From Candidatus Gastranaerophilales bacterium (lineage in GTDB: Bacteria > Cyanobacteriota > Vampirovibrionia > Gastranaerophilales > Gastranaerophilaceae): 64,000 bases of DNA. A program made the translations under genes and the position numbers. Below are positions 37,172 through 39,992 of the stretch, piece after piece. Positions within the stretch are counted from its first letter, which is position 1; the number at the start of each line of letters is the position of its first letter. The notes under the pieces were generated by a model. That model worked only from the letters and a program-made list of their open reading frames with translations. It searched no databases and was not told where the DNA came from. The stretch lies in the NCBI GenBank assembly GCA_947624325.1, contig CANQJT010000001.1, positions 310,001 to 374,000 on the forward strand. The letters are read 5' to 3'.

Positions 37172-37348
37172 CTAAAATTCTGCAATATCAGGATATTTAC
37201 TTCCGCCTTCTTCACCTAAAGCCATTGTAGTATATTCGTCTTCACCCGGAAATTTTTTAACTTTTTCCGGACCTCTGTTTAGTTCTACATTTTTAACTTC
37301 TTTATTTAAATTTTTAAAATCTACAAATGATACACGATTTACTTTCAT
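37172..37348 (-). CDS. Candidate graspetide precursor peptide
   Basis: A 58-codon gene too short for most ORF calls. AGAGGT lies 7 nt before the ATG. The peptide has a basic leader (MKVNRVSFVDFKNLNKEVKN and on, residues 1-35) and an acidic C-terminal part, GEDEYTTMALGEEGGSKYPD followed by IAEF. TTMALGEE fits the TTxxxxEE core of plesiocin-type graspetides, where Thr hydroxyls are ester-linked to Glu side chains. SKYPD...E also recalls the microviridin TxKYPSD tail. It is divergent from an ATP-grasp ligase 127 bp away, the enzyme class that makes such links. The leader start MKVNRVSF resembles the tags of other proteins in this window. No GG protease site separates leader and core with certainty. 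Confidence 0.65.
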   Translation of the reverse strand: MKVNRVSFVDFKNLNKEVKNVELNRGPEKVKKFPGEDEYTTMALGEEGGSKYPDIAEF

Positions 37349-37474
37349 AATATACCTCTTTCTTCTTAAACAATATATCGGATTTTAAATAACAAAACTT
37401 TAGAAAAGAAATATAATATATTAAAAAATCTTAATATTGACAGGAAATATCACATATGATTACATTAAGCTATA

Positions 37475-38386
37475 ATGATAATAATTATTGGTGATAATAA
37501 AGATATACACTCTAATAGAGTTGCAAATAAATTAAAAAATTTAAAAGAAGACTTTTGTTTTCTTGATACAAGGTTTTACCCTGAAAATGTACTTATTAAT
37601 TGGTATCCGGATAATACAGAATTGGGATATATTAAAATTAAAAATAAAAAAATACTTTTAAAAGATATTAAAAGCATATATTGGCGAAATTATTTCGGAA
37701 TTAAATATGAACAAATTGAGAATAACAATTATATGTCTGAAATAACTTACAAAGAAAGAAAGTCTGCATTAACAGGATTATTTTACTCATTAAAAACAAA
37801 CTGGTTTAACTCAATAGAGGCATTTGAAATTCATCAAAAGAAAGCATATGCACTTCATTTAATGAAAAAAAATAATATCAGAATTCCAAGAACATTAATT
37901 ACAAATGATAAAAATTCAATTGAAGATTTTTTTGAAATAAATAACGGGGAAATAATAGTAAAACCCGTGCAGGGAGGTGCATATACAGAAAAACTTTCAA
38001 AAAAAACCTTAACAAAAGAAAGACTTAACTCATTAAAGCAGATACCTGCTCAATTTCAAGAATATATTGACGGAATTGATATTAGAGTGTATGCATTTAA
38101 AAAAGATATTTTTGCCGTAAAAATCAATTCAAATACAATCGATTTCAGAGAAGATAAAAGTGCAGAACTTACAAAAATTGAACTTCCTCAAAAAGTCATT
38201 AATGACTGCTATAAAGTAATGGATATTCTTAAATTAAAGTATTCGGGAATAGATATACGATTAAATAAAAGAGGGGAATATGTTTTTATTGAAGCGAACC
38301 CTGCCCCAATGTTTATTTATGCCGAAAAAGTTACAAAATATCCGCTTACTGAAAGTTTAATTAACTTACTTATAAATAACGCATGA
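37475..38386 (+). CDS. ATP-grasp ligase, graspetide-synthetase (MvdD/RimK) type
   Basis: The 303-residue protein has an N-terminal Rossmann-like domain ending in IKSIYWRNYFGI, the place where graspetide ligases have a 'WYRR' segment. It continues with the ATP-grasp fold: ATP-lysine region GEIIVKPVQGGA, FQEYIDGIDIRVYAF, and metal ligands in YSGIDIRLNKRGEYVFIEAN. These match MdnB/MdnC/MvdD-type ligases that join Thr/Ser or Lys to Glu/Asp in a precursor peptide. The facing 58-residue gene is the likely substrate. No acetyltransferase, ABC exporter or protease is adjacent. The ATG overlaps a TATAAT sequence, so the exact start is uncertain; a TTGACA lies at 37438-37443. Confidence 0.8.
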   Translation: MIIIIGDNKDIHSNRVANKLKNLKEDFCFLDTRFYPENVLINWYPDNTELGYIKIKNKKILLKDIKSIYWRNYFGIKYEQIENNNYMSEITYKERKSALTGLFYSLKTNWFNSIEAFEIHQKKAYALHLMKKNNIRIPRTLITNDKNSIEDFFEINNGEIIVKPVQGGAYTEKLSKKTLTKERLNSLKQIPAQFQEYIDGIDIRVYAFKKDIFAVKINSNTIDFREDKSAELTKIELPQKVINDCYKVMDILKLKYSGIDIRLNKRGEYVFIEANPAPMFIYAEKVTKYPLTESLINLLINNA

Positions 38387-38585
38387 ATTCATGCCCGTAA
38401 CAAAATAAATTTACTACATTAATAGAGCATGTTTATAAATTCAAACGAATAAAGAACATGACACTGTCAATAGCAAAAAAACTAAAAAAATAAGGATTTA
38501 TTAATATTAACGAATGTAAAAATTATTTTAAACACTGGTTTCAAGGGGCATGGTCAATTGTAAAAAATAATTAAAAAAATTAACC
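38387..38585. other. Intergenic region, no intact gene; possible decayed short ORF
   Basis: The gap between the ATP-grasp gene and deoB is 427 bp; this is its first part. An ATG at 38458 opens a 35-codon frame with one in-frame TAA after 11 codons; past the stop the frame reads KNYFKHWFQGAWSIVKNN and then ends. It may be a gene remnant, but I cannot assign a family. Confidence 0.25.
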
Positions 38586-38614
38586 TTGTATAAGTTATTT
38601 ATCAGTCATACTAT
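38586..38614 (+). promoter_or_regulatory. Promoter of candidate small RNA
   Basis: TTGTAT (38586-38591) and TACTAT (38609-38614) are separated by 17 bp. A terminator lies about 130 nt downstream, before deoB. Confidence 0.5.
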
Positions 38615-38620
38615 ATAAAA

Positions 38621-38774
38621 CACAGGGGAAAACAGTATACAGGGAAGGAGTGATGGTGAAGTTATTAGGGTGGAGAAAAAAGGAAATTTTAAGGTTAGAT
38701 ATTAATTAAAAAATGATTAATCGAAGAGAGAGACTAGGGATTTGTTAAAAAGTTCTGTAAAAAGAACTTTTTTT
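38621..38774 (+). ncRNA. Candidate small transcript with 18-codon ORF
   Basis: A promoter and a terminator delimit about 150 nt that hold no annotated gene. The body is strikingly purine-rich. Inside it, GAAGGAG precedes an ORF at 38653-38709 that would encode MVKLLGWRKKEILRLDIN, a cationic amphipathic 18-mer. It could be a small RNA, a peptide-coding RNA or a deoB leader. It does not show the conserved signatures of tmRNA, RNase P RNA, SRP RNA or a T-box. Confidence 0.4.
38747..38774 (+). terminator. Rho-independent terminator upstream of deoB
   Basis: AAAAGTTCT (38748-38756) pairs perfectly with AGAACTTTT (38763-38771) around a 6-nt loop and is followed by T's. No gene ends just before it, so it ends a non-coding or very short transcript. 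Confidence 0.75.
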
Positions 38775-38813
38775 ATTGCTTAGGTTATAATAAACAAAAA
38801 GCAAGGGGAAATT

Positions 38814-39992
38814 ATGAAACGAGCAATAGTAATTGTAATAGATTCAATGGGAATAGGCGCAATGCCTGATTGCAGAGAATATGGCGACACACCTGAATGT
38901 AACACTGTACAAAATGTTGCAAAAGCCTATGGCGGACTTAACTGTCCGAATCTCTATAATTTTGGTTTAGGAAATCTTGCCGATATAAAAGGAATAAATA
39001 AAAATCCTAAGGCCATTGCTCAATACGGAATAATGAAAGAAACCTCTAAAGGTAAAGACACAACAACGGGACACTGGGAAATGATGGGATTAATATTGGA
39101 TAAACCATTTAAAGTTTACCCCAATGGTTTTCCCGATGAACTGATTAATAAATTTATTACTGAAACAAAATGCGGCGGCATTCTGGCTAATTATCCGGCT
39201 TCAGGAACAAAAGTAATTGAAGATTTTCATACCGAACATTCAAAAACAAAATTTCCCATTATTTATACAAGTGCAGACAGTGTATTTCAAATTGCTGCGG
39301 ATATTGATGTTATTCCGCTTGAAACACTATATAAATACTGCGAAATTGCAAGAAATATATTAACCGACGAATACAATGTATCTCGTGTAATTGCTCGCCC
39401 TTATAAAATGGATAACGGTAAACCAGTAAGAATAGGCAAATTTAGAAGGGATTACTCCGTAGAACCGTTTAAAGATTCAGCTTGTGACAAAATTATAAAA
39501 AATAACGGAGCCGTTTTAGGAATAGGCAAAATTGAGGATATTTTTGTAGGCAAGGGTATTTCTCACGCAATACATACAGGCGGAAATACAGAGGGGCTTG
39601 AATTAACTTTAAAAGCAATAAAAAATGAGTTAAATTTAAATGAACTAAAAACAAAAAAATATAATATTGATAAATTTGACAAAGAATTTATTTTTACAAA
39701 TCTTGTAGATACCGATATGCTCTACGGTCACAGAAATGATGCAATCGGCTATGCAAAAGCAATAGAAGAAATAGATACTTATATACCAAAATTTATTGAA
39801 AATATGACGGATGATGACCTTCTAATAATTACTGCAGACCATGGGTGCGACCCTACGGTAGAGGGAACAGACCATACAAGAGAGCAGGTTCCTATACTTA
39901 TTTATTCAAAAAATATTAAACCTGAAAAACTTGAAGAAATTAATTCATTTGATTACATATCAAAAAGGATACTTAGCTGGCTGGATGTATAA
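38814..39992 (+). CDS. deoB: Phosphopentomutase
   Basis: DeoB interconverts ribose- or deoxyribose-1- and -5-phosphate in nucleoside salvage. Metal and phosphate residues of the alkaline-phosphatase fold are visible: VIDSMGIGAMPDC at the N-terminus, KDTTTGHWEMMG, and TADHGCDPTVEGTDHTREQV near the end. Length (392) is normal. CAAGGGGAAATT precedes the start, and TATAAT at 38786-38791 gives a short leader. No deoxyribose aldolase or phosphorylase is adjacent. Confidence 0.97.
   Translation: MKRAIVIVIDSMGIGAMPDCREYGDTPECNTVQNVAKAYGGLNCPNLYNFGLGNLADIKGINKNPKAIAQYGIMKETSKGKDTTTGHWEMMGLILDKPFKVYPNGFPDELINKFITETKCGGILANYPASGTKVIEDFHTEHSKTKFPIIYTSADSVFQIAADIDVIPLETLYKYCEIARNILTDEYNVSRVIARPYKMDNGKPVRIGKFRRDYSVEPFKDSACDKIIKNNGAVLGIGKIEDIFVGKGISHAIHTGGNTEGLELTLKAIKNELNLNELKTKKYNIDKFDKEFIFTNLVDTDMLYGHRNDAIGYAKAIEEIDTYIPKFIENMTDDDLLIITADHGCDPTVEGTDHTREQVPILIYSKNIKPEKLEEINSFDYISKRILSWLDV

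Follow-up and report, generated by a model that had tools for sequence, protein, structure and literature searches.

A probable minimal plesiocin-type graspetide cassette between aroC and deoB in a member of the Gastranaerophilales

The window analysed here, a stretch of 64,000 nucleotides from the 1.98 Mb genome of Candidatus Gastranaerophilales bacterium (genome G000), contains a very short gene facing an ATP-grasp ligase gene, and the question was raised whether the two form a system for an ester-linked peptide and, if so, of which kind. The reading favoured here, with a probability of about 0.88, is that the gene pair represents a minimal plesiocin-type graspetide (omega-ester peptide) cassette (Table 1). 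A first-pass annotation had described a 58-residue open reading frame, preceded by a ribosome-binding site, that diverges from the ligase gene; its coordinates and the residues TTMALGEE, GGSKYPDIAEF, YWRNY and IDIRLNKRGEYVFIEAN were all found as described, and 126 bp separate the two start codons. The genes lie between aroC, whose position is 37096 on the minus strand, and deoB, at 38814 on the plus strand. On the aroC side they are flanked by aroC, aroK, aroB and surE, and on the deoB side by deoB, nadA and a ferredoxin gene. Promoter-like matches were found on both strands of the stretch separating the start codons, at a level not clearly above that of shuffled sequences.

Table 1. Positions in the window of the features of the putative graspetide cassette.
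Feature	Position	Strand	Basis
Predicted graspetide precursor gene, 58 aa	37172..37348	-	Open reading frame; sister-genome homologues beside ligase, 55% identity to G010
Ribosome-binding site AGAGGT	37354..37359	-	5 bases ahead of precursor ATG, from sequence
Leader recognition motif SFVDF, residues 7-11	37316..37330	-	Motif statistics; docking-site role inferred
Core TTMALGEE, residues 40-47	37208..37231	-	Genus-wide invariance; likeness to PsnA2
C-terminal tail SKYPDIAEF	37175..37201	-	Ring-forming positions vary among relatives
Stretch separating both start codons, 126 bp, presumed divergent promoters	37349..37474	.	Promoter-like matches
Predicted graspetide synthetase, ATP-grasp ligase, 303 aa, PsnB-like	37475..38386	+	PsnB 7DRM, Foldseek, Pfam
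Ligase Arg204 codon	38084..38086	+	Same residue in all 23 homologues; PsnB has Arg at the aligned position

The comparison of the ligase with NCBIfam showed the graspetide maturases TIGR04187, MvdC and MvdD to be its nearest models (131, 120 and 119 bits), all of these scores being below the cut-offs, which are 425 and 475 for the MvdC- and MvdD-type models; the RimK family TIGR00768 gave 64.6 bits against a cut-off of 143.4, so that the ligase was not placed in this family either. In Pfam, the RimK ATP-grasp domain, a match at the level of the fold, and the MvdD pre-grasp domain exceeded their cut-offs. The best match among PDB sequences was 7DRM (E 7e-29, 104 bits), followed by MdnC (6e-18, 69 bits), AMdnB and CdnC. 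The protein in entry 7DRM is PsnB, the synthetase of plesiocin (PMC10452190). The identity between the ligase and PsnB is only about 26%, and the score of 104 bits, which refers to the direct comparison only, falls short of what a direct edge would need at alignment score 70, the value given for the graspetide similarity network in PMC13097080. An AlphaFold2 model of the ligase, obtained with 23 homologues, had a mean pLDDT of 91.5, and in Foldseek the PsnB chains ranked first (E 8e-26, TM about 0.85); MdnC, CdnC and AMdnB ranked below them, and RimK was distinctly lower (TM 0.71-0.77). Across the 23 homologues 27 residues were invariant, including Arg204 (23/23), which aligns with the Arg at chain position 233 of PsnB. 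This position we take to be Arg213, on the assumption that a 20-residue tag is present in the chain; in work credited to Song et al. in 2021, PsnB Arg213 reportedly recognises an acidic residue of the core. The ranking of sequences and modelled folds, with PsnB, MdnC, CdnC and AMdnB as top matches, indicates that the ligase is an ATP-grasp enzyme of the macrocyclase type and not RimK proper. It is the only ligase at the locus, where no MvdC/MvdD pair is present.

The 58-mer gave no match in Pfam, in NCBIfam or in a direct search of the PDB, and no curated family contains it. The plesiocin peptide in the PDB was reached only via a longer, multi-core relative of the 58-mer; chain 7drm_E of that entry is the plesiocin precursor fragment PsnA2(14-38), LFIEDLGKVTGGKGGPYTTLAIGEE. 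The core YTTMALGEE is identical to YTTLAIGEE of PsnA2 at 7 of 9 positions and similar at all 9, and in this respect the plesiocin-type TTxxxxEE core recognised earlier was confirmed. In an alignment of five members of the genus the residues T40, T41, A43, L44, G45, E46, E47, G48 and G49 are invariant, together with F8 and F11 of the leader, while the remainder of the peptide drifts; a lack of conservation of TTxxxxEE, which had been named as evidence against the proposal, was thus not observed.

The leader motif [STPDN][FY][VIL]x[FY] is present in 18 of 20 related precursors (SFVDF in the window peptide; PFVKF, TFINF, SFVRF and TFVDF in others). In 5000 shuffles the count averaged 0.34 and never exceeded 4, a contrast that is somewhat overstated because the motif was picked after viewing the same sequences. 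Hydrophobic leader motifs such as PFFARFL and 'Phhx(1,2)h' were described by Makarova et al. (PMC8939145) as ligase-activating sites. The resemblance of SFVDF to these motifs, and to LFIED of PsnA2, suggests that it is probably the site at which the ligase docks. No GG site was found between the leader and the core of the 58-mer.

The association of the two genes was examined in an order-wide sample of 383 genomes, in which E below 1e-15 was taken as a ligase match and E below 1e-60 as a close ligase. A ligase match was found in 25 genomes. A DNA pattern encoding TTxxxGEEGG was found in 18 genomes, 17 of them with a related ligase (Fisher p about 1e-22, uncorrected for relatedness), whereas the reversed pattern matched in only 1 of 383, and the pairing is therefore more than would be expected by chance. 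The exception, G377, is a genome of 84% completeness in which the precursor runs past the contig end. Related ligases occurring without the peptide gene had been named as a possible refutation; all 22 close-ligase genomes of the order carry a precursor, with the exact TTxxxGEEGG in 17, TxAYPSDD in 3 (G192, G226, G264) and a variant or degenerate core in 2. The precursors of G249 and G334 have TTYATYEE/STKAMYEE or a related degenerate core. Within the genus, the TTxxxGEEGG pattern was present in 5/5 genomes with the ligase vs 0/20 others (p 1.9e-5, n=25), and the presence of the cassette was patchy (5 of 41 genomes searched).

The same slot between aroC and deoB holds the cassette in G010, G034 and G012, and the precursor alone in G017; the precursor is found apart from the ligase in G059, G065 and G017. 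The G017 precursor at this place has two cores (L085:4388-4651), its likely ligase being on another contig (L007). In four sampled genomes without the cassette the slot measures 517-587 bp, which is near the 504 bp flanking the cassette here, and no remnants of the ligase (by tblastn) or the precursor were found in these four empty slots. The simplest reading of these sequences would be that the cassette was gained or lost as a unit at this site, in either direction. An origin from a mobile element or plasmid was considered and rejected, plasmid-borne relatives being at best about 25% identical and the insertion or loss at aroC-deoB being clean. The divergent layout, which had been regarded as unusual, recurs in relatives. 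The earlier proposal of a graspetide precursor with its cognate ligase is supported by the homology to PsnB, the co-occurrence and the synteny, all observed directly for the cassette, as were the core identity and the conservation of leader and core.

Upstream of deoB in the window, a non-coding segment of about 350 bp (38440-38790) is strongly conserved in the genus whether the cassette is present or not, with a mean column identity of 65% across 17 genomes. This block ends in a terminator-like hairpin, AAAAAGTTCTG...AGAACTTTTTTT, and has little other predicted structure; a search of Rfam gave no match at gathering score. It also contains a conserved block, GGAAGGAGTGATGGC, read as start-Ala-stop in several of the genomes.

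The chemistry, the ring pairing and the function of the product are those that we infer by analogy with PsnB and MdnC. The ligase would bind the precursor in its N-terminal part, SFVDF being the probable site, and would use ATP to activate the predicted acceptors Glu46 and Glu47 as acyl phosphates. Attack by the predicted donors Thr41 and Thr40 would then produce two nested side-chain esters, giving a ring-within-ring hairpin over M-A-L-G. The predicted product would contain two Thr-Glu esters and be 36 Da lighter (18 Da for each ester), and the GGSKYPDIAEF tail would remain outside any second ring system. According to PMC13097080, the ring-within-ring connectivity is the published pattern of plesiocin, which is a serine protease inhibitor. 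By this analogy the product would most likely be a serine-protease-inhibitor-like hairpin, and the protease inhibition suggested in the first-pass annotation is retained as a possibility.

The cassette shares with the plesiocin system (PsnA2/PsnB, group 2) the core YTTxAxGEE in matching positions, a single ATP-grasp ligase, for which PsnB is the closest relative of solved structure, and a hydrophobic leader motif ahead of the core. It differs from plesiocin, which has four core repeats, in its single core, followed by GG and a KYP-containing tail, and in the leader, SFVDF in place of LFIED. An NHLM/PCAT-type transporter with a peptidase is a frequent companion of group 2, although not a strict requirement, and none is present at this locus. 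The absence of a transporter or protease gene, noted earlier, was confirmed among the flanking genes in the window, but it is less unusual than had been supposed, since groups 27, 28 and 35, as described in PMC13097080, are equally minimal and consist of synthetase and precursor only. Groups 34 and 35 of the same source have long repeat precursors, as do relatives of the cassette. With the microviridin/marinostatin systems (MvdA with MvdC/MvdD) the cassette has in common the enzyme superfamily, the class of chemistry and a superficial KYP string; it is unlike them in lacking the TxKxPSD core and the PFFARFL leader, in having one ligase and not two, and in missing the curated models by far. In other members of the phylum (L094-L102), PsnB-like ligases are accompanied by short precursors that have a GG leader and TTLALGEEGG repeats. 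These precursors share the core repeat with the cassette, their ligases being 31-36% identical, and differ in a leader of the type HPFDL... followed by GG and in the number of cores, from 1 to 4.

The first-pass annotation had also proposed a hybrid core, in which the plesiocin hairpin TTMALGEE would be followed by a microviridin-like ring system in SKYPDIAEF. Both strings are present in the 58-mer, the YP pair is retained in the tails of G010 (SRYPNISKF) and G034 (SKYPNLSEY), a distant relative, G084, joins two such motifs in one precursor, and a TxAYPSDD lineage exists in the genus g60. However, microviridin cores carry TxKxPSD, which they require (PMC7823629), whereas the tail has Ser for Thr and PD for PSD. 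The would-be acceptor acids are replaced by Asn and Lys in SRYPNISKF and by Asn in SKYPNLSEY, and KYP is missing entirely from G012, where the tail is GDTPVFKFEKL, and from G017, where the tail is absent. The 58-mer gave no match to the microviridin model NF033738 at E up to 1, and the single ligase lies far below the MvdC/MvdD cut-offs. A second ring system in the tail was rejected on the tail alignment because the ring-forming acids are not kept, and the hybrid core is considered very unlikely. The chance is smaller still, and close to negligible, that the enzyme belongs to primary metabolism as an amino-acid ligase of the RimK type, the 58-aa frame being a chance neighbour. The Pfam match to the RimK-like ATP-grasp domain and the weak similarity to the RimK and LysX families would agree with this, but PsnB and the microviridin synthetases far outscore RimK in sequence and in fold, and by this ranking a housekeeping ligase was rejected; moreover the core co-occurs with the ligase order-wide, and the cassette, unlike a housekeeping gene, is missing from most relatives.

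The patchy distribution in the genus might also suggest a decaying remnant without a product. This is highly improbable, since both open reading frames are intact, the core stays invariant in five genomes that differ by synonymous changes and diverge elsewhere, and the invariant ligase residues persist in all 23 homologues. More weight is due to the possibility that the chemistry is as proposed while the product works inside the cell or keeps its leader, perhaps as a regulator of an endogenous protease, and is not exported free. A search of the five cassette genomes revealed no Peptidase_C39, the control search being positive in 8 of 14 reference genomes, and hence the usual peptidase-exporter route is probably absent. 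The missing GG ahead of the core, the lack of a transporter in the flanks read around related loci and the embedding of cores in long proteins (190-490 aa) in other relatives point in the same direction. On the other hand, the leader-cleaving peptidase is usually encoded outside the locus (Makarova et al., PMC8939145), and general secretion or an unrelated protease could serve, the search having covered C39 only. Retention in the cell is thus a possibility to be taken seriously, though the less probable course.

Apart from the plesiocin-type cassette of the window, a change of core type is seen among its relatives. In the genus g60 a second ligase, 40% identical, faces a 160-174-aa precursor with TLAYPSDD, TKAYPSDD and TMAYPSDD. 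The g60 precursors at L040:7205-7729, L041:10318-10842, L052:7297-7779 and L053:9454-9978 have 3-4 copies of a microviridin-like TxA[YF]PSDD, and that of L040 scored 22.5 bits with NF033738, just under the cut-off of 26. A tree of the ligases, with its deep forks unresolved, puts the YPSDD clade among those of TTxAxGEEGG type. It is tempting to speculate, at slightly less than even odds, that the Vampirovibrionia ligase family switched between TTxAxGEEGG (1 to 14 copies, some in long proteins) and TxAYPSDD (g60, apparently with a single PsnB-like ligase), G084 having both in one precursor. The G084 frame (L014:2646-3128), of 160 aa with TMAYPSDS and TSMAIGEEGG, is a candidate two-motif graspetide. 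In G093 (L016, L018), cores of the TTxAxGEE type occur beside a distant ligase within repeat proteins of 260-490 aa, whose repeats resemble RTX/calcium-binding beta-roll repeats. Distant ATP-grasp proteins of 29-32% identity were found at L017 (the second G012 ligase), L015, L034 and L035. At L015 and L017 the ATP-grasp gene is followed by a protein of about 360 aa and an open reading frame, which at L015 carries TSEK/FPG repeats; this arrangement is possibly another ATP-grasp peptide system of the same bacterial family.

The core type and the enzyme type of the cassette are already known. Among the papers searched, none reported graspetides in Melainabacteria or Vampirovibrionia, although the tables of large surveys, one of which (PMC13097080) lists over 21,000 predicted graspetides, may include this one. 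The finding extends plesiocin-type graspetides to a gut lineage that is uncultured, and the cassette, made up of one ligase and a single-core precursor of 58 aa without accessory genes, provides a handy minimal pair for the study of leader and core reading by PsnB-like enzymes. In a family with 1 to 14 cores and a microviridin-like switch, the evolution of ring topology becomes directly testable. If the core switching is true, this non-photosynthetic, gut-associated cyanobacterial class would offer a natural series for the change of ring topology by a macrocyclase, with the window peptide as its minimal single-core member. By analogy with plesiocin, a protease-inhibitor-like peptide made in the gut may bear on host or microbial proteases.
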